Below the pieces are notes generated by a model. That model was not told where the DNA came from, searched no databases, and saw only the letters and a program-made list of their open reading frames with translations. Shown piece by piece: positions 6,145 through 47,974 of a stretch of 49,712 nucleotides of DNA. Each line of letters begins with the position of its first letter. Within the stretch, counting starts at the first letter, position 1. The stretch is from Verrucomicrobiaceae bacterium (lineage in GTDB: Bacteria; Verrucomicrobiota; Verrucomicrobiia; Verrucomicrobiales; V1-33), in assembly GCA_027483175.1 (NCBI GenBank), contig JAIXVE010000060.1, positions 1 through 49,712 on the forward strand, written 5' to 3'. A program made the translations under genes and the position numbers.

Positions 6145-6426
6145 TCACATGTGTGACTCCGTTTCGGTGTCGAAGGCAAATATGATGTAAAGTGTAGAAC
6201 TAGCTGCCGAGCAGATCCAGGACGGGAGGTAAAAGCGCCCGGACCTCCGGAAGAATATCAGTGTGATCGAAAGTGCAATCAGGAGAACGGCCGCGATCGG
6301 GGCGAAAAAGAGGGCAGCCTTGAACTCGCCCCGAGTATTCTTAGTAGCGAACACGAAAAGAGTGAGAAGGGCGACAATTACCCAAGCTGAAAAAGGCAGG
6401 AGAAGTCCGAAAGCGATTTTCTTCAT
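6145..6426 (-). CDS. Small membrane protein
   Basis: A 93-residue protein beginning MKKIAFGLLLPFSAWV with three hydrophobic segments near residues 5-27, 36-58 and 66-86, separated by short basic loops (KNTRGEFK and FRRSGRF). No family or function is recognised. The ATG at 6426 is chosen because the upstream in-frame sequence is a proline/histidine-rich shadow of intergenic repeat DNA. It is isolated, with the frameshifted remnant 80 bases downstream. Composition is balanced compared with the genes around it. Confidence 0.5.
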   Translation of the reverse strand: MKKIAFGLLLPFSAWVIVALLTLFVFATKNTRGEFKAALFFAPIAAVLLIALSITLIFFRRSGRFYLPSWICSAASSTLYIIFAFDTETESHM

Positions 6427-6534
6427 TTGTTTGGGCGAGCGGTGTGCTTCTGATGGCGAATTTCGACGGATGTTTTGTTGTTTGGCCGTCAAGAACCGTG
6501 GTTTGGCCGGATCATGCCATTGTGGCGAATAGCC

Positions 6535-6622
6535 GTCAAACCGGGAATGCGGCTGGCGAGTTGGTGGTGCGGCGTGGGATCGGGGATTGGGATGATGGGA
6601 GTGGAATTGGAGAAGTGAGAAG
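6535..6622 (+). repeat. Composite intergenic repeat block, copy 2
   Basis: The partner of the block at 4364-4440: GTCAAACCGG at 6535, GTGGGATCGGG at 6574 and GAAGTGAGAAG at 6612. It ends in nearly two units of the GAGAAGT heptad (6610-6622). Confidence 0.55.
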
Positions 6623-6650
6623 GGCTTGTGGGGAGAGGGCTGGTGGGGGG

Positions 6651-6806
6651 GGGCGCGAGTACGGAGCCTCGCGTGCCCGGGCTTGTTCGGAGGAGGGCTG
6701 GTTAGGGGTGGGTGTGCTTGAATGGTGCCGGGCCAGCAGGCTGGCTCCGGGAAAGCGGCAGCAGGCTTCCGCAGTCCAAGGCCTTCGGCGGGGGGCTTGT
6801 TCGGTG
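6651..6806 (+). repeat. Array of hairpin modules with GGCTTGTTCGG linkers
   Basis: Successive inverted repeats: an imperfect hairpin at 6651-6678 built on CGCGAG/CTCGCG, one at 6728-6750 (CCGGGCCAG with CTGGCTCCGG) and one at 6750-6770 (GGAAAGC with GCTTCC). A linker GGCTTGTTCGG recurs at 6680 and near 6796, and the related GGCTGGTTCGG occurs near 6933. The same kind of linker follows the related element at 38 kb. Confidence 0.5.
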
Positions 6807-6811
6807 GGCTG

Positions 6812-6872
6812 GTAGGCGCACTCCGTGCGCAGGGAGAGCTGTGATTGCTCACAGCAGTACAGAGCCTGCGGC
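6812..6872 (+). repeat. Three-way-junction repeat, copy 1
   Basis: An outer stem (GTAGGC with GCCTGC) encloses two hairpins: GCGCAC-TCC-GTGCGC and GCTGTGA-TTGC-TCACAGC. It matches the element at 38623-38683 over about 60 bases. A U-A to C-G change in the second hairpin and a wobble to Watson-Crick change in the outer stem both keep the pairing. Confidence 0.65.
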
Positions 6873-6879
6873 GTGATGA

Positions 6880-6914
6880 GGGGATTTGAGATTTGAGATT
6901 TGAAATCTGAGATG
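6880..6914 (+). repeat. GATTTGA heptad repeat, copy 2
   Basis: Three perfect GATTTGA units (6883-6903) followed by AATCTGAGA. It is the same unit, copy number, flanks and orientation as the repeat at 2961-2995. Confidence 0.8.
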
Positions 6915-7033
6915 GGGCGCGTTCGGAGGGGGGGCTGGTTCGGAGAGGGGTGGGGGTGGGGGAGTTTTTGGGGGGAGGTGGTTTTGGCGTTGTTTCGGGG
7001 ATTGGGTGGGGGCAGAGTGGCGGGGACATGGCT

Positions 7034-7993
7034 ATGAAACGCATTCTTCTTACGACGACGAGTTATCAGGACACGCCTGGCGAGCATCATGAGCTGCTGG
7101 GTTCGCAGGGGTATGAGATTGTGCGGGAGAGGGGGCCGCTGACGGAGGCGAGGATGCTGGAGCTGGCGGGGGAGTTTGACGGGTTTCTGTGCGGGGATGA
7201 TGAACTGACGAAGGCGGTGCTGGAGAAGTCGAGGCCGCGGCTGACGGTGATCAGCAAGTACGGGATCGGATTGGACAAGATTGATCTGGGTGCGGCGCAG
7301 GAGTTGGGGATACCGGTGTTGTTCACGCCGGGGGTGAATCACACGACGGTGGCGGAGCATACGTTCTGTCTGCTGCTGGCGATGGTGAGGCATCTGGTGC
7401 CGTCGGCGAATGCGACTCGGGCGGGGCAGTGGAAGCGGATGACGGGGAATGAGTTGTGGCGGAAGCGGGTGGGGATCATCGGGCTGGGGAGGATCGGGCA
7501 GGAGATGATCAAGCGGTGTCGTGGGTTTGACATGGAGGTGCATGCGTTTGGGAATTACTGGCCGGCGGAGTTTGCGGCGGAGTACGGGGTGGTGCGGCAT
7601 TTGTCGCTGGAGGCGATGCTGCCGCAGGTGGACATCCTGAGCCTGCACACGATGCTGAGTCATGAGACGAAGCATCTGATTGATGCGGACAAGCTGGGGA
7701 GGTTGCCGGAGGGGGCGTGGCTGGTGAATACGTCGCGGGGGGAGCTGGTGGATGGGGAGGCGGTGCTGGCGGCGTTGGATTCGGGGCGATTGGCTGGGTA
7801 TGCGACGGATGTGATGGAGCATGAGCCGCCGCCGGCGGATCATCCGCTGCTGAAGCATGAGAAGACGCTGGTGACGCCGCACATTGGGAGTCGGACGTAT
7901 GAGAGCGTGCCGCGGCAGGCGATGCGGGCGACGCGGAATCTGATCAACTTTTTCAACGGGGACAGTGACGTGTACGTGGCGACGCGGGATTAA
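7034..7993 (+). CDS. D-2-hydroxyacid dehydrogenase (phosphoglycerate dehydrogenase-like)
   Basis: A 319-residue NAD-dependent dehydrogenase of the D-isomer-specific family. It shows the Rossmann signature VGIIGLGRIGQE near residue 147, the family block LSLHTMLSHETKHLID, the catalytic Arg in NTSRGELVD (about 231-239), the Glu in DVMEHEPP (about 260) and the catalytic His in TPHIGSRT (about 281). These make up the Arg-Glu-His relay. It is shorter than full SerA and lacks an ACT domain, so a role in serine synthesis is possible but other 2-hydroxyacids fit equally. I chose the ATG at 7034 because GGGGA at 7022-7026 is then well spaced; an in-frame ATG at 7028 is nearly equivalent. The DUF3616 gene follows within 20 bases. 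Confidence 0.85.
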   Translation: MKRILLTTTSYQDTPGEHHELLGSQGYEIVRERGPLTEARMLELAGEFDGFLCGDDELTKAVLEKSRPRLTVISKYGIGLDKIDLGAAQELGIPVLFTPGVNHTTVAEHTFCLLLAMVRHLVPSANATRAGQWKRMTGNELWRKRVGIIGLGRIGQEMIKRCRGFDMEVHAFGNYWPAEFAAEYGVVRHLSLEAMLPQVDILSLHTMLSHETKHLIDADKLGRLPEGAWLVNTSRGELVDGEAVLAALDSGRLAGYATDVMEHEPPPADHPLLKHEKTLVTPHIGSRTYESVPRQAMRATRNLINFFNGDSDVYVATRD

Positions 7994-8010
7994 CCGTGGT
8001 AGATGAGATG

Positions 8011-9027
8011 ATGAAGACCTTGATTTGTGCGGTCGTGCTGGGTGCGGCGGGGATGTATTCCGGGTGTGTGGCGGCACCTGGGTGGAAGATTGCGGTGCTG
8101 CCTGGGGAGTGGGAGTGCACGGGGTTTGAGGAGGACAAGGATCTGAGTGCGATGGCGGCTTGGGATGCGACGCATGTGCTCGTGGCGACGGACGAGACGG
8201 TGACGATTCAGCCGGGGGTGATGGATCGAGCGGCGCGGAGGATTACGGCTGGGGCGGCGCTGGCGTTGCCGGTGGGTGGGGGTGGAGAGAAGGATGAGAA
8301 GGAGGAGGCGGACTGCGAGGGATTGGCGGTGATGCGTGAGGAGAAGGCGTATTTTCTGACGGGGTCGCATGGGTTAGGGAAGAAGAAGGCGGATTTTCAG
8401 GAGGGAAGGTGTCAGGTTTTCCGGATTCCGGTGGATCCGACGACGGGTGAGGCGAGTGGGCGTGGGATTACGACGGCGAGCCTGCTGCCGTGGGCGGCGA
8501 AGGATCCGGTGCTGGGGCGTTATGTGCGGCAGCCACTGCAGTTGAACGGGTTCAACATTGAGGGGCTGGCGGCGAAGGATGGGAAGCTGTGGTTCGGGCT
8601 GCGGGCACCTAACGAGGGTGGGAATGCGTTTGTGGTGGAGACGAGTCCGGCGGCGTTGTTTGAGAAGGGTGGTGAGGGGTCGGTGCTGCACCGGATTCCG
8701 GTGGGGGCCGGGGTGGGGATTCGGGAGATCGCGGCGTTGCGGGACGGGTTTCTGGTGCTGACGGGGAATGCGAGTGCGGAGGCGACGAAGAAGCAGCCGA
8801 AGACGATGGCTCCGGGGGACGATGTGAGTTTTACGCTGTGGTTCTGGAGGCCGGTGGGGCCGGGGGGATTCACGCAGAAGATCGGGGAATTGCCGGAGCC
8901 GACGGCGAAGGCGGAGGGATTGCTGGTGCTGGAGGAGACGGCGGATGAGGTGGAGGTGCTGGTGTTGTTTGACAGTGCGCCGGGGGGAGGACCAAAGGCC
9001 TATCGACTGAGTCGGCCGAAACCGTGA
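8011..9027 (+). CDS. DUF3616-family exported protein
   Basis: A 338-residue protein with an N-terminal export signal (MKTLICAVVLGAAG), ending either in a lipobox-like YSGC at residues 16-19 or at a signal peptidase I site just after. The body carries typical DUF3616 blocks: DCEGLAV, a FNIEGLAAKDGKLWFGLRAP stretch near residues 184-203 and GNAFVVE. It is probably a beta-propeller of unknown ligand. In-frame GTG at 7996 and ATG at 8008 are alternatives; 8011 puts the signal peptide first. It lies between the dehydrogenase and sixA, overlapping the latter's possible GTG start, so the genes probably form one transcript. Confidence 0.65.
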   Translation: MKTLICAVVLGAAGMYSGCVAAPGWKIAVLPGEWECTGFEEDKDLSAMAAWDATHVLVATDETVTIQPGVMDRAARRITAGAALALPVGGGGEKDEKEEADCEGLAVMREEKAYFLTGSHGLGKKKADFQEGRCQVFRIPVDPTTGEASGRGITTASLLPWAAKDPVLGRYVRQPLQLNGFNIEGLAAKDGKLWFGLRAPNEGGNAFVVETSPAALFEKGGEGSVLHRIPVGAGVGIREIAALRDGFLVLTGNASAEATKKQPKTMAPGDDVSFTLWFWRPVGPGGFTQKIGELPEPTAKAEGLLVLEETADEVEVLVLFDSAPGGGPKAYRLSRPKP

Positions 9028-32918: not shown

Positions 32919-35585
32919 ATGACGACGCGAATCCGATCCATAATTGTGAGGGTGGTACGAATGATGTTGCTGGTTGCGGTGGTGGCCGGGGTGAGGGAGT
33001 CGGGGCGATGGCGGCGAGCGCAGGAGTTGCCGGTGGTGGGAGTGGCGGAGGTGGCGGCGGTGTTTCCGGGGGTGGCCGAGGTGGGAGTGCGGGATCCGGG
33101 GAGCGGGCGTCAGGTGGTGAAGGGGGCGGATGGCCGGGAGATTGGGAGTGTGTGTCTGACATTGCCTGGGCAGCGGGAGGTGAGGGGATACAGTGGGCCG
33201 ACGCAGGTGCTGGCTGGGTTGTGGCCGGATGGGCGGTTGGCTGGGTGGACGATACTGGCGAGTGGGGAGACGCCGGAGCATGCTGGGATGGTGGCGGGGA
33301 GTGAGGTATTTCGTCGGCATCTGGATGGATGGAAGGCTGGGGAGCGGGTGCCGGAGATGCCGGTGGTGGCTGGGGCGACGCTGACGGCGACGGCGGTGAG
33401 GGAGGCGCTGGTGCGGATGTTGTCGGAGCCGGTGCGGGGGACGTCGCTGCGGTTTCCTGAGGGGCCGGATCTGGCGGAGGCGAGGGAGTTGTTTCCCGGG
33501 GCGGTTGGGTTGGTGGAGACGGGTGGGCGGTGGCGTGTGGAGGATGAAGGGGGGCGGGTGGTGGGCTGGTTGCTGCGGAGCGGGCCGGTGGCTGATGGGG
33601 TGAGGGGTTATCAGGGGCCGACGGAAGTGTTGTGCGGGCTGGATGCGGGTGGGGAGCGGATTGCGGGGGTGCGGTTGAGGAGGAGTTATGACAATGAGCC
33701 GTATGTGGGGTATGTGAGGGAGGATCTGGGTTGGCTGGGGAGTTTTCGGGGGCTGACGCTGGCGGAGATGGCGGCGATGGATTTTGAGAAGGCGGGAGTG
33801 GAGGGGGTGAGCGGGGCGACGCTGACGAGTTATGCGGTGGCGGCGAGTTTGAAGGCGGTGAGTGCGGCGGCGGAGGTGCCGGTGGTTGATAAGGGAGTGG
33901 GAGGTGAGGGGCGGTGGGCGTGGCGGTGGGAGGATGTGGTGCTGGTGCTGGTGGTGGTGGGTGGGGTGGTGATGGGGATGACGAAGTTGCGTGGGCGGGA
34001 GCGGGTGAGGAAAGTGTGGCAGGCGGTGCTGGTGGTGGTGCCTGGGTTGTGGCTAGGGAGCATGGTGGCGCTGCCGCAGCTGGCTGGGTGGATGGAGCAC
34101 GGGGTTTCATGGCGAGCGGGTTTGGGGATGTTGGTGATGGCGTCGGTGGCGCTGTTGATGCCGTGGGCGACGGGGAGGCAGGTGTATTGCCATCAGATTT
34201 GTCCGCATGGAGCGGCGCAGACGTGGGTGGGGCGGCTGGGGGTGAAGAAGCTGGTGGTGCCGGTGCGATGGCACGGGGTGCTGCGGAGAGTGCCGGGGGT
34301 GCTGCTGGTGGCGGCGGTGTTGTCGGTGGTGTTTGCGTGGGGATGGCCGCTGGCGTCGATGGAGCCGTTTGATGCGTGGGTGCCGCGGGTGGCTGGGGTG
34401 GCGTCGCTGGTACTGGCGGTGGCTGGGCTGGCGGCTGCGGCGGTGGTGCCGCAGGCGTATTGTCAGTATGGTTGTCCGACGGGGGCGTTGCTGAGGTATG
34501 TGAGGTCGAGCGGGCTGGTGGACCGGTTGGGGTGGCGGGATGGGGTGGCGATGTTGTGTGCGGTGGCGGCGTGGGTGCCGGTGTGGCAGTATCGGGTGAT
34601 GGGTGGGGCTGGGGCTGGTGGGTCGGTGGGAGTGGCGGTGCCGACGCGGGTGGCGGGGATGGCGTTTGGGACCTCGTGGAGCGTGTCGCTGCGGGAGCCG
34701 GTGCCGGAAGGGCTGGGGGTGGAGTTGGAGACGGCGTTGGGGGAATTGGAGAAGGAGTTGTCGTGCTGGCGGGGAGATTCGGTGATTTCGGTGTTCAATG
34801 GGTTGGCTGGGCCGGTGGAGTTTCCGGTGCCGGGGCGGGTGAGCGAGTTGGCGGGCGTGGCGGCGGGGATCAGTCGGGCGACGGGGGGGGCGTTTGACTG
34901 CACTATGGGGCCGCTGGTGCGGGCGTGGGGATTTGGGCCACCGCCGCATGGGGAGCGTGTGCCGGGTGAGGAGGAGCGGCGGCGGTTACTGGCGATGGCG
35001 GGTTGGGAGAAGCTGGGGGTTTCGGCTGGGAAGCTGGAGAAGCGGACGGCTGGGGTGACGCTGGATCTGACCCCGGTGGGGGAGGGAGCGGCGCTGGAGG
35101 CGATGGGGCGGGTGCTGGATGGGGCTGGGTTGGGGGAGTGGCTGATTTCGTTTGGCGGGGAGTTGAAGGCCCGTGGGGAGTGGCGGGTGGAGGTGGAGGA
35201 TTCGGGTCGGGAGGAAGTGCTGGTGGATGCGGCGATGTCGACGAGCGGGGTGCGGCGGGCGCGGCGCGGGGGGGTGAGTCATCTGATTGACGGGCGCACG
35301 GGTGTGCCGGTGCGGCATGACACCGTGTCGGTGACGGTGCGTCATGAGTCGGCGGTGGAGGCGGACGGGTGGGCGACGGCCTTGGCGGTGCTGGGGAGCG
35401 GCGAAGGCTTGGCGGTGGCGCGGCGCGCGGGGGTGGCGGCTCAGTTTGTGAGCGAGCGGAATGGGGCCGTGGAGGTGGAGACGAGCCCTGCGTGGGAGGA
35501 GGGCGGGTGGGCGCTTACCAGAAGCGTTCCATCATCCGGGCGAACGGACCTTTTTCCGAGTATTTCTGAGTCGAGCGCTGATTGA
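32919..35585 (+). CDS. NosR-like flavo-iron-sulfur protein fused to ApbE
   Basis: An 888-residue protein joining an electron-transfer protein to its own flavin transferase. A membrane anchor lies at about 13-25, followed by two FMN-binding domains. The first motif is AGATLTAT (151-158) and the second the canonical SGATLTS (298-304), where Thr303 would carry covalent FMN. About five membrane segments (338-555) contain the two NosR-type CxxxCP motifs, Cys424/Cys428 and Cys515/Cys519. Residues 576-855 form an ApbE domain (FAD:protein FMN transferase) with FDCTMGPLVRAWGF, DLTPVGEGAALE (716-727), SFGGEL, STSG (774-777), HLIDGRTGVPV and the metal-binding ADGWATAL (815-822). The usual Lys of the D-x5-KG motif is Glu722. 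ApbE acts outside the cytoplasm. The last 71 bases overlap the convergent cyclophilin gene. Confidence 0.85.
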   Translation: MTTRIRSIIVRVVRMMLLVAVVAGVRESGRWRRAQELPVVGVAEVAAVFPGVAEVGVRDPGSGRQVVKGADGREIGSVCLTLPGQREVRGYSGPTQVLAGLWPDGRLAGWTILASGETPEHAGMVAGSEVFRRHLDGWKAGERVPEMPVVAGATLTATAVREALVRMLSEPVRGTSLRFPEGPDLAEARELFPGAVGLVETGGRWRVEDEGGRVVGWLLRSGPVADGVRGYQGPTEVLCGLDAGGERIAGVRLRRSYDNEPYVGYVREDLGWLGSFRGLTLAEMAAMDFEKAGVEGVSGATLTSYAVAASLKAVSAAAEVPVVDKGVGGEGRWAWRWEDVVLVLVVVGGVVMGMTKLRGRERVRKVWQAVLVVVPGLWLGSMVALPQLAGWMEHGVSWRAGLGMLVMASVALLMPWATGRQVYCHQICPHGAAQTWVGRLGVKKLVVPVRWHGVLRRVPGVLLVAAVLSVVFAWGWPLASMEPFDAWVPRVAGVASLVLAVAGLAAAAVVPQAYCQYGCPTGALLRYVRSSGLVDRLGWRDGVAMLCAVAAWVPVWQYRVMGGAGAGGSVGVAVPTRVAGMAFGTSWSVSLREPVPEGLGVELETALGELEKELSCWRGDSVISVFNGLAGPVEFPVPGRVSELAGVAAGISRATGGAFDCTMGPLVRAWGFGPPPHGERVPGEEERRRLLAMAGWEKLGVSAGKLEKRTAGVTLDLTPVGEGAALEAMGRVLDGAGLGEWLISFGGELKARGEWRVEVEDSGREEVLVDAAMSTSGVRRARRGGVSHLIDGRTGVPVRHDTVSVTVRHESAVEADGWATALAVLGSGEGLAVARRAGVAAQFVSERNGAVEVETSPAWEEGGWALTRSVPSSGRTDLFPSISESSAD

Positions 35586-36543: not shown

Positions 36544-36610
36544 ATTTCATGGTGAATCGGTTTTCGGGAGAGGTTGCGTGGGTGAGGGGAGTGAGTTACG
36601 GCGGCGGGCG

Positions 36611-38548
36611 ATGAATGAGACGCTGAGCCGAAATGTTTTGCTGCATGGGACTGAGATTGCGCCGGATGGTGGGCGTGAGTTGAGAGCGGGGCCTTTGCGG
36701 ATGGTGCTGGGGGACGGGCAGGTGAGGCGGGTGATGCTGGGGGGGCGGGAGGTGGTGAGGCGGATCTACGGGGCGGTGCGGGACGGGTTCTGGAACACGG
36801 TGCCTGGGGAGATCAGCGGGATGCGGGTGGTGGAGGGGGATTGGGGATTTGTGGTGAAGTTTCGGTCTGAGCACCGGCAGTTTGAGGCTGATTTCACGTG
36901 GGAGGCGGAGATCACGGGGAGTGCGGACGGGACATTGAGGTATGTGTTTGAGGGACGTGCGGGGCGGACCTTTGCGCGGAACCGGATTGGGTTGTGTGTG
37001 CTGCATCCTGACGATCTGGCGGGGGCGGGATGCGAGGTGGAGCACGTGAGCGGGGAAGTGGCGGCGCGGGTGTTTCCGGGATTGGTGGATCCGATGCAGC
37101 CGGTGAGGGGTCTGCATGATTTCCGGGCGATTCGTTATGGGGTGGGTGAGGGAGTGGAGCTGGAGGTGAGGTGTGAGGGGGATGTGTTTGAGATTGAGGA
37201 TCAGAGGAACTGGACGGATGCGAGTTTCAAGACGTACAGCACGCCGCAGCGGATTCCGCTGCCGGGGACGATCCGTGAGGGGCAGGTGGTGAGGCAGGTG
37301 GTGACGGTTAGGTTGTTAGGTGAGGGCGCGGGGGGGCTGACGGCGGCGGAGCCGGCGGGTGCGGTGGGTGAGGTGGCGTTGCGGCTGAGTGGTGGGGAGG
37401 TTCCGCTGGTGAGGTATGGGCTTGGGGTGGCGGTGCCTGGGGCGAGAGTGCTGACGGAGGTGGAAGCCGGGCGGGTGGCGCAGGCTGGGGTGGCGTGGCT
37501 GCGGGTGGATCTGGACATGAGCGGGGAGGGCTGGAGGGAGACGTTAGGGGACGGGCTGGTGCAGGCGGGGTCGTGCGGGGCGAAGGTGGAGGTGGTGCTG
37601 CATCTGCCGGAGGAGCCGCGGGGAGTGCTGGAGATGCTGCGCGGGCTGGAGAGTGCGTGGAGCGGGCGGGTGGAGCGGTGGCTGGTGCTGACGAAGGGGA
37701 AGCCGGCGACGAGTGCGGCGGCGCTGACGGCGGCGCGGGAAGTGCTAGGCGGGACGGCTCCGGTGGGTGGCGGGACGGATGCGGATTTCTTTCAATTGAA
37801 CAACAACCGCCCGCCGGCTGGGCTGATGGATTTTGTGAGTGTGCCGCTGAGGCCGCTGGCGCATCAGTTTGACGAGGAGACCCTGTTTGAGAATCTGGGT
37901 GGGCAGCGGCATGTGCTGCGGGCGGTGGCGGCGGTGTTTCCGGGGGTGCCGGTGCATGTATCGCCGGTGAGTTTCCGGACGAGGGCGCAGAAGGGACCGC
38001 CGATGCCAGAGGGGCAGATGCCCGCGCAGGCGGATGTGAGGCAGATGGCGCTGGCTGGGGCGGCGTGGCTGCTGGGTTGTTTGAAGGCGGTGGGGGAGAC
38101 GGGAGCGGCGGGAGTGACGTTATTTCAGACGACGGGATTGCGGGGTGTGATGGAGACGGCGGGTGGGAGTGCGGTGCCGGGGGTGTTTCGATCGCTGCCT
38201 GGGGCGGTGTATCCGTGCTGGCATGTGCTGGCGGCGCTGGCACCGTTTGCGGGTGGGGTGATGCGGGTGGTGGAGAGCAGCGAGCCGCTGATGGCGGGAG
38301 GAGTGCTGGTGGAGCGGGATGGGCGGCGGCGGCTGCTGGTGATGAATGAGACGGCGGAGCGGCGGCGCGTGGTGATTCCGTCGGAGGTGAGAGGTGCGGG
38401 GTTGAGGTTCAAAGTGCTGGATGCTAGTGTGGCGGAAGCGGCGATGGTGGGGCCGGAGGCGTTTGTGGCTGGTGAGGCTGGAGTGGTGGTGGCGGAGGAT
38501 GGGGTGGTGGAGTTGGATGGGTATGCGGTGGCTTGGGCGGATTGCTGA
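36611..38548 (+). CDS. ApnL-like (D-apionate lactonase family) protein
   Basis: A 645-residue soluble protein without a signal peptide. The N-terminal beta-rich region has LRAGPLRMVLGDGQVRRV, IYGAVRDGFWNT, NRIGLCVLHP (about 127-137) and the conspicuous EDQRNWTDASFKTY (about 196-209). A TIM-barrel-like middle (VAWLRVDLDM, VEVVLHLPEEP, FQLNNNRPP) and a C-terminal beta domain (LLVMNETAERRRVVIP) follow, resembling a clan GH-A hydrolase. From memory these blocks match ApnL D-apionate lactonases, which open the lactone in apiose breakdown; this could not be checked and no other apn gene is near. The ATG at 36611 is preferred over an upstream GTG at 36578. The tRNA ends 67 bases before it. Confidence 0.5.
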   Translation: MNETLSRNVLLHGTEIAPDGGRELRAGPLRMVLGDGQVRRVMLGGREVVRRIYGAVRDGFWNTVPGEISGMRVVEGDWGFVVKFRSEHRQFEADFTWEAEITGSADGTLRYVFEGRAGRTFARNRIGLCVLHPDDLAGAGCEVEHVSGEVAARVFPGLVDPMQPVRGLHDFRAIRYGVGEGVELEVRCEGDVFEIEDQRNWTDASFKTYSTPQRIPLPGTIREGQVVRQVVTVRLLGEGAGGLTAAEPAGAVGEVALRLSGGEVPLVRYGLGVAVPGARVLTEVEAGRVAQAGVAWLRVDLDMSGEGWRETLGDGLVQAGSCGAKVEVVLHLPEEPRGVLEMLRGLESAWSGRVERWLVLTKGKPATSAAALTAAREVLGGTAPVGGGTDADFFQLNNNRPPAGLMDFVSVPLRPLAHQFDEETLFENLGGQRHVLRAVAAVFPGVPVHVSPVSFRTRAQKGPPMPEGQMPAQADVRQMALAGAAWLLGCLKAVGETGAAGVTLFQTTGLRGVMETAGGSAVPGVFRSLPGAVYPCWHVLAALAPFAGGVMRVVESSEPLMAGGVLVERDGRRRLLVMNETAERRRVVIPSEVRGAGLRFKVLDASVAEAAMVGPEAFVAGEAGVVVAEDGVVELDGYAVAWADC

Positions 38549-42492: not shown

Positions 42493-44300
42493 CTCTGGGG
42501 AATCCGCTGGGGTTGCTGGCGCTGCTAGGGTTGCCGGCGGTGCTGGCGGTGCATTTTCTGCAGCGTCGGGCGAAGCGCGAGGTGGTGAGTACGTTGTTTC
42601 TGCTGACGCCGCTGCATCGGGAGAGTGAGAGCGGGCGGCGTTGGGAGCGGTTGCGGACCTCGTGGCCGCTGTGGTTGCAGTTGCTGGCGGTGCTGGTGCT
42701 GGCGTGGCTGATGGCGGAGCCGCGGTGGTTAGAGAAGAACAGCGTGCAGCGGGTGGCGCTGGTGCTGGACGGGTCGGCGTCGATGCGGGTTTCGAAGGAG
42801 CGGTTGGTGAAGTATCTTCGGGAGGATCTGGGGGGGTTAGGGAGGCTGAGCGGGACGACCGAGTACACCGTGCTGGATTCGCGGGTGGGGCAGGGTCGGT
42901 TGTATCATGGGACGGAGTTGAGCGGCGTGGTGGCGGCGGTGGAGACGTGGGTGCCTGCGGCGGGGACGCATGATCCGGGGCCGGCGTTGCGGCTGGCGCG
43001 GAGTTTGAGTGGGCCGGATGGGGTGGTTTGGTATGTGACGGACCATGCGGTGGAGACGTCGGTGGCTGGGGTGCAGGTGTATGCGGTGGGGGAGAGTGCG
43101 GAGAATTGCGGGATTGCTGGGGTGACGGTGGAGGAGACGGCGGGTCGGCGAGTGTGGCGGGCGCTGCTGAGGAATTACAGTGATCGGGCGGTGGAGCGGA
43201 CGTGGCGGGTGACGGACCGGAGTGGGGCGGCGTCGGTGCCGGAGAAGGTGACGATTCCGGCGCGGGGGAATCTGGCGGTGCAGGGTGCGTTTCCTGAGGG
43301 GAGCGAGGGATTGGTGATTGCGGTGGATGCCGATGTGTTTCCGCTGGATGACGTGGCACCGGTGTTGCGGCCGCGGCCGAGACGGTTGGCGGCGGTGCTG
43401 CCTGAGGGGGCTGGGGAGGCGTCGTGGCGGAAGTTAGTGGAGAGCCTGCCTGATTTCGGGGTGACGGCGGATGCCGGGCTGGCGGATCTGGAGATTGTGG
43501 AGGCCGGGGGAGGGGCGGAGGTGGCGGCGGAGCGGCCTGGGGTGGTGTTTGTGAAGGCTGGAGAGACGGCTGCGCCGATGCGCGGCGTGGTGTTGGTGGA
43601 GCGGCACCGGTTGACGCAGGATTTGAACTGGCAGGCGGTGGCGGCGGAGGCGGTTCCGGGGGTGGCGATGCGTGAGGGTGATGAAGTGCTGGTGTGGATA
43701 GGGGATCGGGCGCTGGTGCTGCTGCGCGGCGGGGAGAACCGGAGGCAGTTGATCTTCAATTTTGATCCGGCTAGGTCGAATGCGTTGCGGCAGCCGGCGA
43801 TGGTGGTGACCTTGTTGAGGTTTCTGGAGGAGAGGCGGGGTCAGGTGCCTAGGGAGGAGATTTCGAATGTGGATTGCGGGCAGCTGGTGGATCAGCCGTT
43901 GAAGTTAGGGTCGGGGGATCCGGCGGTGGAGATGACGTGGGAGACGATTGGGGCTGGCGGGGTGGTAGGGAAGGTGGAGGGGCGGAGCGTGGCGGCGGAG
44001 CGGGCGGCGGTGCTGCGGGCACCGGAGGAACCGGCGTTTTTCAAGGTGCGGCAGGGCGGTCGGACCGTGCTGACTGCGGCGGCGGCGTTCCGGGATGCGC
44101 GGGAGGCGGATTTTTCGAAGGCGGTGACGAAGCGGGAGGTGGAGACGGTGAGGGAAGCGCTGAGCGATCGGCACAGCCAGGCGGATGGTCACTGGAGGCT
44201 GTGGGTTCTGGTGCTGCTGGGATTGTTGCTAGGTTCGTGGCTGCTGGCGGGGAAGGCGAGGCGGAGCGATCAGCGGGAAGGCGGGGTGTTGGGAGTTTGA
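42483..44300 (+). CDS. BatA-like protein with von Willebrand domain
   Basis: A 605-residue membrane protein. The N-terminus is a BatA/aerotolerance-regulator segment: NPLGLLALLGLPAVLAVHFLQRR (residues about 6-28), then a second helix near 60-78. A von Willebrand fold with MIDAS DGSAS (about 96-100) follows, then beta domains and a final membrane segment (RLWVLVLLGLLLGSWLLAG, about 572-590). The start is the GTG at 42483, overlapping DUF58; the TTG at 42489, in a TTGA overlap with GGAG 8 bases upstream, is equally plausible. It is coupled to DUF58 and probably forms a complex with it in the membrane. The last 31 bases overlap the convergent FAD oxidoreductase gene. Confidence 0.75.
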   Translation: MGLTLGNPLGLLALLGLPAVLAVHFLQRRAKREVVSTLFLLTPLHRESESGRRWERLRTSWPLWLQLLAVLVLAWLMAEPRWLEKNSVQRVALVLDGSASMRVSKERLVKYLREDLGGLGRLSGTTEYTVLDSRVGQGRLYHGTELSGVVAAVETWVPAAGTHDPGPALRLARSLSGPDGVVWYVTDHAVETSVAGVQVYAVGESAENCGIAGVTVEETAGRRVWRALLRNYSDRAVERTWRVTDRSGAASVPEKVTIPARGNLAVQGAFPEGSEGLVIAVDADVFPLDDVAPVLRPRPRRLAAVLPEGAGEASWRKLVESLPDFGVTADAGLADLEIVEAGGGAEVAAERPGVVFVKAGETAAPMRGVVLVERHRLTQDLNWQAVAAEAVPGVAMREGDEVLVWIGDRALVLLRGGENRRQLIFNFDPARSNALRQPAMVVTLLRFLEERRGQVPREEISNVDCGQLVDQPLKLGSGDPAVEMTWETIGAGGVVGKVEGRSVAAERAAVLRAPEEPAFFKVRQGGRTVLTAAAAFRDAREADFSKAVTKREVETVREALSDRHSQADGHWRLWVLVLLGLLLGSWLLAGKARRSDQREGGVLGV

Positions 44301-46363
44301 GGGGTGGGGGATTTGGCGGGGATGAAGCGGACGGCGTCGAGGATGACGTGGCCGTTCGCGTCTTTGGAGAAGAACGTGACGGAGGTGGTGGCGGGGAGAT
44401 TGAACGTGCCGACGGGGATGAACAGCGGGTTGCCGCCTTGTTGCTGATTGATGGAGACCTCGCGGGGGCCGGCGGTGGTGAGGATGGAGAGACGGACCTT
44501 TCTGGCGCGGTTTTCGTGCGGGGCGCAGGCGATCTGGATTTCCCATGGGCCGGCGTGGGGGAGCGTGGTGTTGAAGATGGCGCTGTTAGAGGGATTGGCG
44601 GTGGCGCTGTCGTGGTGGTAGCCTGAGCCGTGGAACGGTTTGATGGCGGAGCTGGGTTTCCATGAGCCGGAGAGGGAAGCGGCGGAGTCGTCGATGGTGA
44701 TGCTGCCTGCGGCGGCGGCGTCGGGAGAGTGGGAAGGCCATGAGAGGATCTGGCCGTCGGCGGCGAGACGATCGCGGAGGATTTGGTAGGGGATCTCGTG
44801 GGGAGAGGAGGCGCGGTCGAGGGCGAGACAGGCTCCGGTGGCGGCGGACTGGGCGAGGATCATGAAGACCGGTTCCATGCGGATGGAGCCGAAGGCGATG
44901 TGGGAGCTGGAGAGACAGACGGGGACGAGGAGATTGGAGAGTTGGTCGCGTTTGGGGAGGAGGGCGCGCCATGAGACTGGATAGGGAGCGGGGAGTGGAG
45001 CGCCGACATCGCCCTCGTTCTGGACGTGGCCGTCGGGGGTGATGTAGCGCTGGACGTTGTGAGAGTCGATGGTGTAGGAGCCCATGCCGACGGGATCGGG
45101 GACGGGATTGGTGCCGGTGAGTTCGTGTTCGGTCATGACGAATTCGCCGGTGAGGCGTCGTGCTTCGCGGATGTAGAGCTGGTGGGGCCAGTGGCCGTTG
45201 TCGGTGAATTCGTCTTTGGCGAGGCCCCATGACTGCATGGCGGAGCGGACGTCGGAGGGGACGCGCGGGTCATTGGCGATGAAGTAGAGCCAGCCCTGCT
45301 GGTAGTCGCGATGGGCTTGGATGATGCGGGCGCGGGTGGCGTCGTCGCCGTCCGGGTATTGGTAATTGGCGCCGATGAAGTCGAAGCTGACGGGGCCGTG
45401 GTTATTGGTATCGGTTTTCCGGTTAGGGATGGGGTCGAATTTGGCAAAGGTTTCGCGCCAGCCGGCGTTGAAGACGCGGAGGAGGAGCTCGTAGGTATCC
45501 GGGTTGTATTGGGATGGTTTGGGGAAGGGGACGCGGTTTTCGGGGTGATTGGTGAGGCAGAGGCGGAAGCAGTAGGCCTGGATGCGGTGGTCGGCTGAGC
45601 CGAAAGTGCCTGGGGGATCGGTGCTGATGAGCGGGAGCGTGCCGGAGGCAGGGTTGCCGGGGATTTTGAAGGGACTGATGGGTGAGGGGAGGACGCCGAA
45701 GTGGTGGCGGTGGTGGAGGATGCCGGTCTGGACCCCGTTCCATTTTTCCTTGTAGGTGGCGAGGGATTCGCGACCCGCGTGCCATGAGGCACCGGCGGCG
45801 GCCATGAGATCGCCTTCGTAGGTGGCGTCGATGAACATGCCGCCGGAGAAGGAGAGACCGTTTTTGGTGGTTAGGGAGACGATGCGGGTGCCGTCGCGAC
45901 GGATGCCGTGGGAGCGGTCGAGCGGGGCGTTGCGGTGGACGGGGATGTGGTATTCGCGGATGAGGTTTTCGAAGACATTTTCAGCGGCGTGGGGTTCGAA
46001 GATCCACATGGTGCGCTGGGTGCCGTCGATGGCTGGGGTGCCCTGGCCCTTATTGCCGTAGTCGGCTGGGGATTGGAACGGCCATGAGGCGGGGAGCTGG
46101 TAGTGCTGCCAGATGCGGTGATAGAATTCGCGGGCGAGGCCTCCGATGACGGCTTTGTTGCCGGTGTCGGTGAAGCCGAGGCCTCCGGAGGAGAGACCGC
46201 CGAGATGGGTGTCGGGGGAGATGATGACCGTGGATTTGCCCATGCGGCGGGCCTGGACGGCGGCGATGACGGCGGCTGACGTGCCGCCGTAGATGACGAC
46301 GTCGGCGTGTTCGGCGAGGGAGACGGCGGGGAGGGCGAGGGCGAGGAGGAGGGGGAAGCGCAT
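44270..46363 (-). CDS. Secreted FAD-dependent oxidoreductase
   Basis: A 697-residue protein with a signal peptide (1-17, cut after SLA). The FAD fold begins DVVIYGGTSAAVIAA (21-35) and continues with VIISPDTHLGGLSSGGLG, FIDATYEGDLMAAAGA and IDSHNVQRYITPDG, the pattern of the PF12831 oxidoreductases often annotated as xanthan-lyase-related. The last 130 residues form a beta-sandwich ending IPVGTFNLPATTSVTFFSKD, typical of golvesin-like C-terminal domains. It probably acts on a sugar or sugar acid outside the cytoplasm. The start is 6 bases after the sulfatase stop. Confidence 0.75.
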   Translation of the reverse strand: MRFPLLLALALPAVSLAEHADVVIYGGTSAAVIAAVQARRMGKSTVIISPDTHLGGLSSGGLGFTDTGNKAVIGGLAREFYHRIWQHYQLPASWPFQSPADYGNKGQGTPAIDGTQRTMWIFEPHAAENVFENLIREYHIPVHRNAPLDRSHGIRRDGTRIVSLTTKNGLSFSGGMFIDATYEGDLMAAAGASWHAGRESLATYKEKWNGVQTGILHHRHHFGVLPSPISPFKIPGNPASGTLPLISTDPPGTFGSADHRIQAYCFRLCLTNHPENRVPFPKPSQYNPDTYELLLRVFNAGWRETFAKFDPIPNRKTDTNNHGPVSFDFIGANYQYPDGDDATRARIIQAHRDYQQGWLYFIANDPRVPSDVRSAMQSWGLAKDEFTDNGHWPHQLYIREARRLTGEFVMTEHELTGTNPVPDPVGMGSYTIDSHNVQRYITPDGHVQNEGDVGAPLPAPYPVSWRALLPKRDQLSNLLVPVCLSSSHIAFGSIRMEPVFMILAQSAATGACLALDRASSPHEIPYQILRDRLAADGQILSWPSHSPDAAAAGSITIDDSAASLSGSWKPSSAIKPFHGSGYHHDSATANPSNSAIFNTTLPHAGPWEIQIACAPHENRARKVRLSILTTAGPREVSINQQQGGNPLFIPVGTFNLPATTSVTFFSKDANGHVILDAVRFIPAKSPTPQTPNTPPSR

Positions 46364-46369
46364 GGGGAT

Positions 46370-47974
46370 TCAGCGAGGGCGGCGGGGTGAGGGGAGGTCG
46401 GAGAAGGGAGGGCGGTCGAAGGCGAGCCCGTCGCCGGAGACGCGAGGGTCGCCGGCGGCGCGGAGGGAGTCGAGGAGCTGGCGGGAGAGAGAATCTTTGG
46501 TGGCGGCGTGGGCTGGGTCGGCGGCGAGATTGACGAGCTGGGCTGGGTCTTTGCGGAGATCGTAGAGTTCTTCGGCGGGGCGTTTGGCGAAGGCGAGGTC
46601 GTAGAATTTCTGCCACTCGGGCTGGCGGCCGTTGAGGATGAGCCATGCTTTGGTGGGGCTGGCGTCCATGTCAGCGAAGGCGAGGTGGGTGTTAGAGGAG
46701 AGGGATTCGGCGGATGGGGCGTCTGGGGATTCGGCGGCTTTGGGATTTCCCATGGGCCAGCGATCGGGAGCGAAGTTGCGGATGTAGAGGTGGTCGGCGG
46801 TGCGAAGGGCGCGTTGTGGGTAGGGGAGGGCGAGGTCGCGGGCGTTGGCGACGTGGCGTTCGCGGCCTGTGATGACGTGGTTACGGGCGGGGTCGATGAG
46901 GCCGGATTTGTCAGAGTCGAGGAGCGGCAGGAGCGAGCGGCCGTGCATGCCTGTGGGGATGGGGAGGCCTGCGGTTTCGAGGAACGTCGGGGCGAGGTCC
47001 ATGAGGGAAGTGAAGTCGTCGATGATGCGGTTGCCGGGGCGGCCTGGGAAGCGGGCGGCGAGGGTGACGGCGGTGCCGAAGTCGTAGAGATTGCATTTGC
47101 CGCGAGGCATGCCGGGCATGCCGTGGTCGCCGCTGATGATGACGAGCGTGTTATCGAGCTGGCCGGAGGATTCGAGGCGTTTGAGGAGGATGCCGATGGC
47201 GGCGTCGAAGGCCTGGATTTCGCCGAAGTAGTCGGAGAAGTCCTCACGGGTGGCGGGGACGTCGGGGAGGTGGGGAGGGATGCGGCCCTTGAAGCGATCG
47301 GGGTCGATGTTCCAGAGGGCTTTGCCGGAGCCTTGTTTCCATGAGCGGTGGACGTTGGTGGGGCCGAACCAGTAGAGCCATGGGGAGTTGGGTTGGCGGG
47401 CGGCGAGGAATTCGTCGAAGTTGGTGCCGATGCCGTCGAGGAGCTGGCGTGAGGCTTCTGGGAAGGGAGTGCCTGCGGCGACGAGGGTGGAGGCGTTTTT
47501 GGAGAAGCCGTTGAAGCGTTGGCCGTGTTTTTCGTAGGCGTAGCGGCCGGTGCCGAAGGGGGCGTCGGCTGGGTCGCCGGGGCTCCAGACCTTGAAGGTT
47601 TCGCCGATGTGGTGGCCGGCGTCGCGGAGGAGGAGAGGGAAGGAAGGGATGGTGCTGTCCCAGTAGGCACCCTGGAGGATTGCGCCGCGGCCGGTGCTGA
47701 AGAAGTGGCGGCCGGAGAGGAGGGCGCTGCGGCAGGGCGTGCAGGACGGGGCGTTGACGAAGGCGTGGCGGAAGAGAGCGCCTTCGCGGGCGATGCGGTC
47801 GATGTTGGGCGTGTGGATGAGTTCGTGGATGGAGCCCTTGCCGTCGACGGCGGCGTAGGCGCTGGCGTAGCGGCCCCAGTCGTCGGCGAAGCAGAAGAGG
47901 ATGTTGAGAGGGCGTTTGGGATCTGCGTGGAGGGGGAGGAGAGAGCAGAGCAGGAGGAGGGCGAGCCTGAGCAT
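46370..47974 (-). CDS. Secreted type I sulfatase
   Basis: A 534-residue sulfatase with a signal peptide (1-17). It has the metal-binding LFCFADDWG (26-34), TPNIDRIAREG (55-65), the modification motif SCTPCRSALLSGRH with Cys78 as formylglycine precursor (C-x-P-x-R rule kept), IISGDHGMPGMPRGK, and RPAEELYDLRKDPAQLVNLA near the end, as in S1-family sulfatases. Maturation needs a formylglycine-generating enzyme, not in this window. It is co-directional with, and 6 bases upstream of, the FAD oxidoreductase, suggesting breakdown of a sulfated polysaccharide. Confidence 0.88.
   Translation of the reverse strand: MLRLALLLLCSLLPLHADPKRPLNILFCFADDWGRYASAYAAVDGKGSIHELIHTPNIDRIAREGALFRHAFVNAPSCTPCRSALLSGRHFFSTGRGAILQGAYWDSTIPSFPLLLRDAGHHIGETFKVWSPGDPADAPFGTGRYAYEKHGQRFNGFSKNASTLVAAGTPFPEASRQLLDGIGTNFDEFLAARQPNSPWLYWFGPTNVHRSWKQGSGKALWNIDPDRFKGRIPPHLPDVPATREDFSDYFGEIQAFDAAIGILLKRLESSGQLDNTLVIISGDHGMPGMPRGKCNLYDFGTAVTLAARFPGRPGNRIIDDFTSLMDLAPTFLETAGLPIPTGMHGRSLLPLLDSDKSGLIDPARNHVITGRERHVANARDLALPYPQRALRTADHLYIRNFAPDRWPMGNPKAAESPDAPSAESLSSNTHLAFADMDASPTKAWLILNGRQPEWQKFYDLAFAKRPAEELYDLRKDPAQLVNLAADPAHAATKDSLSRQLLDSLRAAGDPRVSGDGLAFDRPPFSDLPSPRRPR

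Follow-up and report, generated by a model that had tools for sequence, protein, structure and literature searches.

A flavin transferase fused to a predicted double-flavin membrane conduit in Verrucomicrobiaceae, with an exported FAD oxidoreductase as candidate partner

Known flavinylated conduits and the present fusion

In the NapH-like systems that bind flavin mononucleotide (FMN), which include RdhC/PceC and NosR, the flavin is attached by ApbE (Meheust et al. 2021, PMC8238504). The same would hold for the protein described here, an 888-residue chain encoded on a 49,712-nucleotide stretch of a Verrucomicrobiaceae bacterium (contig JAIXVE010000060.1, assembly GCA_027483175.1; this whole stretch is called the window), in which a conduit of this kind and ApbE are fused. 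The chain probably conducts electrons across the membrane and brings along the enzyme for its own maturation, with an exported flavin adenine dinucleotide (FAD) oxidoreductase as its partner. Partners already described for NapH-like flavinylated conduits include nirS, exaA, nos and rdh. The fusion differs from these systems in having two FMN_bind domains, a seventh helix, a C-terminal ApbE and a likely FAD_oxidored partner.

The original prediction called the membrane part NosR-like. A NosR/RdhC-like module is indeed found, but it is closer to the RdhC/NapH-like proteins. NosR has a C-terminal 4Fe-4S domain with a pair of 4Fe-4S clusters, whereas in the fusion this domain is absent, ApbE follows helix 7 and only Fer4_5 stretches were found. 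RdhC has its FMN domain between helices 1 and 2 and carries two CX3CP motifs, and the fusion shares both features. A NosR that has lost its nosZ was rejected, because the C-terminal domain of NosR is missing from the module and NosZ did not turn up: a search of the genome (94.6% complete) with the single model TIGR04246 gave one partial match of 19.7 bits against a cut-off of 625. Reductive dehalogenase (PF13486) also had no match in the genome, but control genomes gave none either.

Separate ApbEs do occur in relatives, as expected of what is normally a stand-alone enzyme, but fusions of ApbE to its substrate are already known. Like the present fusion, the ApbE–DUF2271 fusions (e.g., RUL87804.1, PMC8238504) are exported bacterial proteins that unite the transferase with its substrate domain; they differ in using another substrate domain and in having no transmembrane electron module. 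In trypanosomatid fumarate reductase, ApbE is fused to its substrate, which it reportedly flavinylates in T. brucei (PMC12052999). That protein, however, is a glycosomal, eukaryotic, soluble enzyme with ApbE at its N terminus. Among solved structures, the one nearest to the fused ApbE domain is P. stutzeri ApbE (5mgy; Foldseek E 4.7e-21, TMt 0.88), a transferase separate from its substrate that a title cited in PMC8238504 presents as the enzyme maturing NosR. Fusion of ApbE to a substrate is therefore not new, but the present form is undescribed in the literature searched. That literature was open access, with subscription papers outside its scope, and it held no account of this fusion or of PF12831 together with flavinylation.

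Domain layout and predicted topology

The proposed architecture of two FMN domains, a CxxxCP membrane module and ApbE in a single chain was confirmed by Pfam and by motifs. FMN_bind (PF04205) is found twice (58.3 bits, cut-off 22), as is Fer4_5 (46.7 bits, cut-off 22), and ApbE (PF02424) spans residues 583-841 (177.3 bits, cut-off 25.6), covering profile positions 1-264 of 266. The features, in window coordinates, are as follows.

32919..35585 (+): fusion gene, 888 aa, with two FMN_bind domains, a membrane module of seven helices bearing two CxxxCP motifs, and ApbE
32922..33023 (+): N-terminal transmembrane helix, residues 2-35 (AlphaFold2), hydrophobic core 7-25 (hydropathy peak)
33186..33422 (+): FMN_bind domain 1, residues 90-168, predicted FMN site Thr154 (33378-33380)
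33606..33857 (+): FMN_bind domain 2, approximately residues 230-313, predicted FMN site Thr301 (33819-33821)
33927..34601 (+): membrane module, helices 337-354, 361-378, 402-418, 449-472, 494-507 and 539-561
Residues 424-429 and 515-520: CxxxCP motifs CHQICP and CQYGCP, predicted on the cytoplasmic side
34605..34637 (+): disordered linker from helix 7 to ApbE, residues 563-573, predicted local distance difference test (pLDDT) under 50
34665..35441 (+): ApbE domain, with Ser776, His788 and Asp816

The four CxxxCP cysteines are invariant in 81/81 relatives. Hydropathy indicates seven helices, and the positive charges put the N terminus and the CHQICP and CQYGCP loops inside. AlphaFold2, run with a 121-row alignment, gave the same helices (mean pLDDT 89.4, predicted template modelling score 0.67). 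From the helix count and the charges, both FMN domains and ApbE are predicted to be extracytoplasmic and so to share the outer side of the membrane. For the related PceC, experiments have located the FMN domain on the outer side (PMC5928378). An arrangement with the FMN domains and ApbE on opposite sides, which the original prediction had named as fatal to its idea, is not supported by this predicted helix count and charge pattern.

Expected flavin sites

The sequence GATLT occurs at residues 152 and 299. In domain 2, SGAT at 298-301 fits the [S/T]GAT-type site of FMN_bind. The corresponding AGAT of domain 1 (151-154) deviates at its first residue and does not have the leading Asp of the motif, a point against the self-flavinylating conduit proposed here. 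The last Ser/Thr of the flavinylation motif is the FMN-bearing residue, and in SaFMN3-D2 the FMN is on Thr72 while Thr74 contacts the flavin N3 (PMC10339131). Because of homology to this protein, Thr154 and Thr301 are expected to carry FMN, with Thr156 and Thr303, both invariant in 81/81 relatives, expected to contact the flavin. Thr303, earlier taken for the flavin site, is thus reassigned as a contact residue, and the expected covalent sites are Thr301 and Thr154.

The ApbE domain and possible self-flavinylation

The triad of the ApbE domain is intact. By motif position, rather than by alignment with the V. cholerae protein, Ser776, His788 and Asp816 correspond to the Ser-His-Asp conserved at 241, 257 and 285 in V. 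cholerae ApbE. An N-terminal lipoprotein or signal-peptide anchor is typical of most ApbEs, although it does not define them. The fused ApbE has no such anchor of its own, and helix 7 of the module stands in its place; as read by eye, separate ApbEs have their own hydrophobic N terminus and the fused ones do not.

A same-side topology would make self-flavinylation possible, and the chain may flavinylate itself in cis. The original idea of a self-flavinylating extracytoplasmic redox protein is thus consistent with the predicted topology, the intact triad and the cognate ApbE clade described below, with a transfer that may be in cis or between copies. It is also possible, if fairly unlikely, that the fusion chiefly tethers ApbE in place and amount, that ApbE works in trans on other copies and substrates, and that the module is flavinylated by any available ApbE. 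Such a role would suit a genome with three other ApbEs, one of them fused to DUF2271. It would also suit G008, the nearest unfused relative from the same family, which has the module but no cognate-clade ApbE among its matches, so that another ApbE can presumably serve. This relative counts against the self-flavinylating reading. A role in trans is harder to square with the fusion being the sole FMN_bind protein of this genome and with the inheritance of module and ApbE as a pair. The ApbE–DUF2271 fusion of this genome lies at 6425-8047 of locus L067 (contig C27).

Evolution of the fusion

At a threshold of E 1e-3, the module, mostly unfused, was matched in 154/289 genomes of the order; some of these matches extend over the second half alone. 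Fused versions are found in families (f labels) f1 (G000 and G011, as the compared genomes of that family are labeled), f2 (G250), f3 (G150), f4 (G033) and f13 (G378, G550 and G629). Across the class, apbE is variously unlinked to the module, adjacent to it or fused. In other genomes it lies directly downstream of the module and encodes its own hydrophobic N terminus, and several f4 g11 genomes have an unlinked ApbE (~36-40% identity).

The tested ApbEs that are fused or adjacent to the module form one clade (98/98), separate from the other ApbEs in the tree, which come from f1 genomes and include two from this genome. By its position in this tree, the ApbE described here belongs to the clade that is co-inherited with the module. 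The module tree requires at least two fusion events. A single origin of the fusion was rejected on that tree (approximately unbiased test, p-AU 6e-07, for a group picked by architecture and with long branches present).

These unlinked, adjacent and fused states of the gene pair link one particular ApbE to one particular substrate, and the fusion renders cis flavinylation testable with a single gene.

A candidate redox partner

The original prediction noted that nosZ was not nearby and left the electron partner open. The single-model search likewise gave no NosZ, and there is now a strong candidate, an exported PF12831 FAD oxidoreductase (FAD_oxidored) encoded elsewhere in the genome and operonic with the module in other families. 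In f2, f3, f6 and f13, its gene lies directly upstream of the module. Of the 32 upstream pairs, most are separated by less than 210 nt, often by tens of bases. In the f2, f6 and f13 loci the oxidoreductase carries, as judged by eye, a signal peptide, and it often ends in a Golvesin_C tail. The orthologue in this genome (58% identity along its whole length) is on contig C68. It is not linked to the module, and its gene overlaps a PF10142 gene by 4 nt.

Among the 289 genomes, with the oxidoreductase counted at E 1e-130, both genes occur in 147, the module only in 7, the oxidoreductase only in 6 and neither in 129. This cut was picked after the list was seen; at a looser E 1e-80 the counts are 149/5/23/112 in the same order. 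The co-occurrence lists were transcribed by hand, as were the upstream pairs, which come from search coordinates. Within f1, module and oxidoreductase are jointly present or absent, save in one genome that is 75% complete.

Several observations weigh against a partnership. The two genes lie apart both in this genome and in f4, no close orthologue of the oxidoreductase occurs in G250 or G150, two genomes with the fused form, and the Fisher test of co-occurrence (p ~1e-64) ignores shared ancestry. It is conceivable, though unlikely, that the oxidoreductase is not the redox partner and that both genes are markers of one lifestyle or have a shared ancestry. The lack of linkage here and in f4 fits that alternative, as does the kinship among genomes that inflates the Fisher test, and the fold of the oxidoreductase matches many FAD enzymes. 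In contrast, its place immediately upstream of the module in four families and the joint presence and absence within f1 argue for a partnership, and the exported oxidoreductase is retained as the candidate.

In the oxidoreductase model, CBM35-like and xanthan-lyase C-terminal folds were matched among many generic FAD enzymes, and in Foldseek its middle part matches only the latter. As a guess, its substrate could be glycan linked.

The C68 gene stands within locus L193 (3303-8621), which holds an ammonium-transporter-like gene, a PF10142 PhoPQ-related protein, the FAD oxidoreductase and then LytS/LytTR-like regulators (transporter and regulators assigned by eye). The window itself encodes another exported FAD oxidoreductase of PF12831, likewise ending in a Golvesin tail (E 9e-104), beside a sulfatase; the two genes occupy 44270-46363 (-) and 46370-47974 (-).

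Proposed mechanism

Helices 2-7 with the two CxxxCP motifs would form the RdhC/NosR/NapH-like membrane module, with the two flavin domains outside the membrane. Helix 7 would return the chain outward and hold ApbE through the short flexible linker. ApbE would then take extracytoplasmic FAD, place FMN on Thr154 and Thr301 of its own or a neighboring copy and release AMP. Electrons could travel in either direction along a path from a quinone or cytoplasmic pool through the membrane module to the pair of flavins, which would in turn exchange them with the exported FAD oxidoreductase, here the one on contig C68. This explanation draws on tests of the architecture, the sister copy, ApbE co-inheritance, operon linkage and co-occurrence, and on a predicted topology and fold; the electron path, the partnership and cis flavinylation we infer.

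The prospects are about even for a broader proposal of a previously undescribed Verrucomicrobiota extracytoplasmic redox system, in which an exported FAD oxidoreductase with sugar-binding-like ends (N-terminal CBM35-like, C-terminal Golvesin) would trade electrons with the membrane chain by way of a double-flavin conduit that is self-flavinylating in some lineages. The fusion has also pointed to a candidate partner for this orphan NapH-like conduit: the exported oxidoreductase, which accompanies it across an order of bacteria. The literature searched gave no function for this enzyme.

Reading frame and surroundings

The sister species G011 has a copy of the fusion at 92% identity, full length on one contig, and a second contig carries residues 1-836. 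Residues 555-580, where a frame error or missed stop had been proposed as a check, have no stop in either species, and the sister copies rule out such an error. Third codon positions hold more than their share of the substitutions between the two, and the linker contains a single 1-residue gap; the junction is therefore taken to be coding in both species. A whole-protein search of genome contigs gave that sister species, a Verrucomicrobiaceae metagenome-assembled genome (MAG; JAIXPK01), as its sole match, and the same architecture is found in six more genomes of the class, those of f2, f3, f4 and f13 named above. That a sequencing or assembly error fused two neighboring genes is extremely improbable, given the open frame and linker kept on two G011 contigs and the identical architecture in other genera, even though in other families apbE does immediately follow the module. 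The two copies in G011 (loci L008 and L018, ~92-94% identical to the query) may reflect mixed strains or a duplication in one MAG.

A local operon partner is ruled out, as the flanking genes are on the opposite strand and unrelated (bestrophin-like and cyclophilin). A viral fold search gave no match. Further along the window, the forward strand encodes a 656-aa protein, free of Pfam matches, at 36578-38548 (+).
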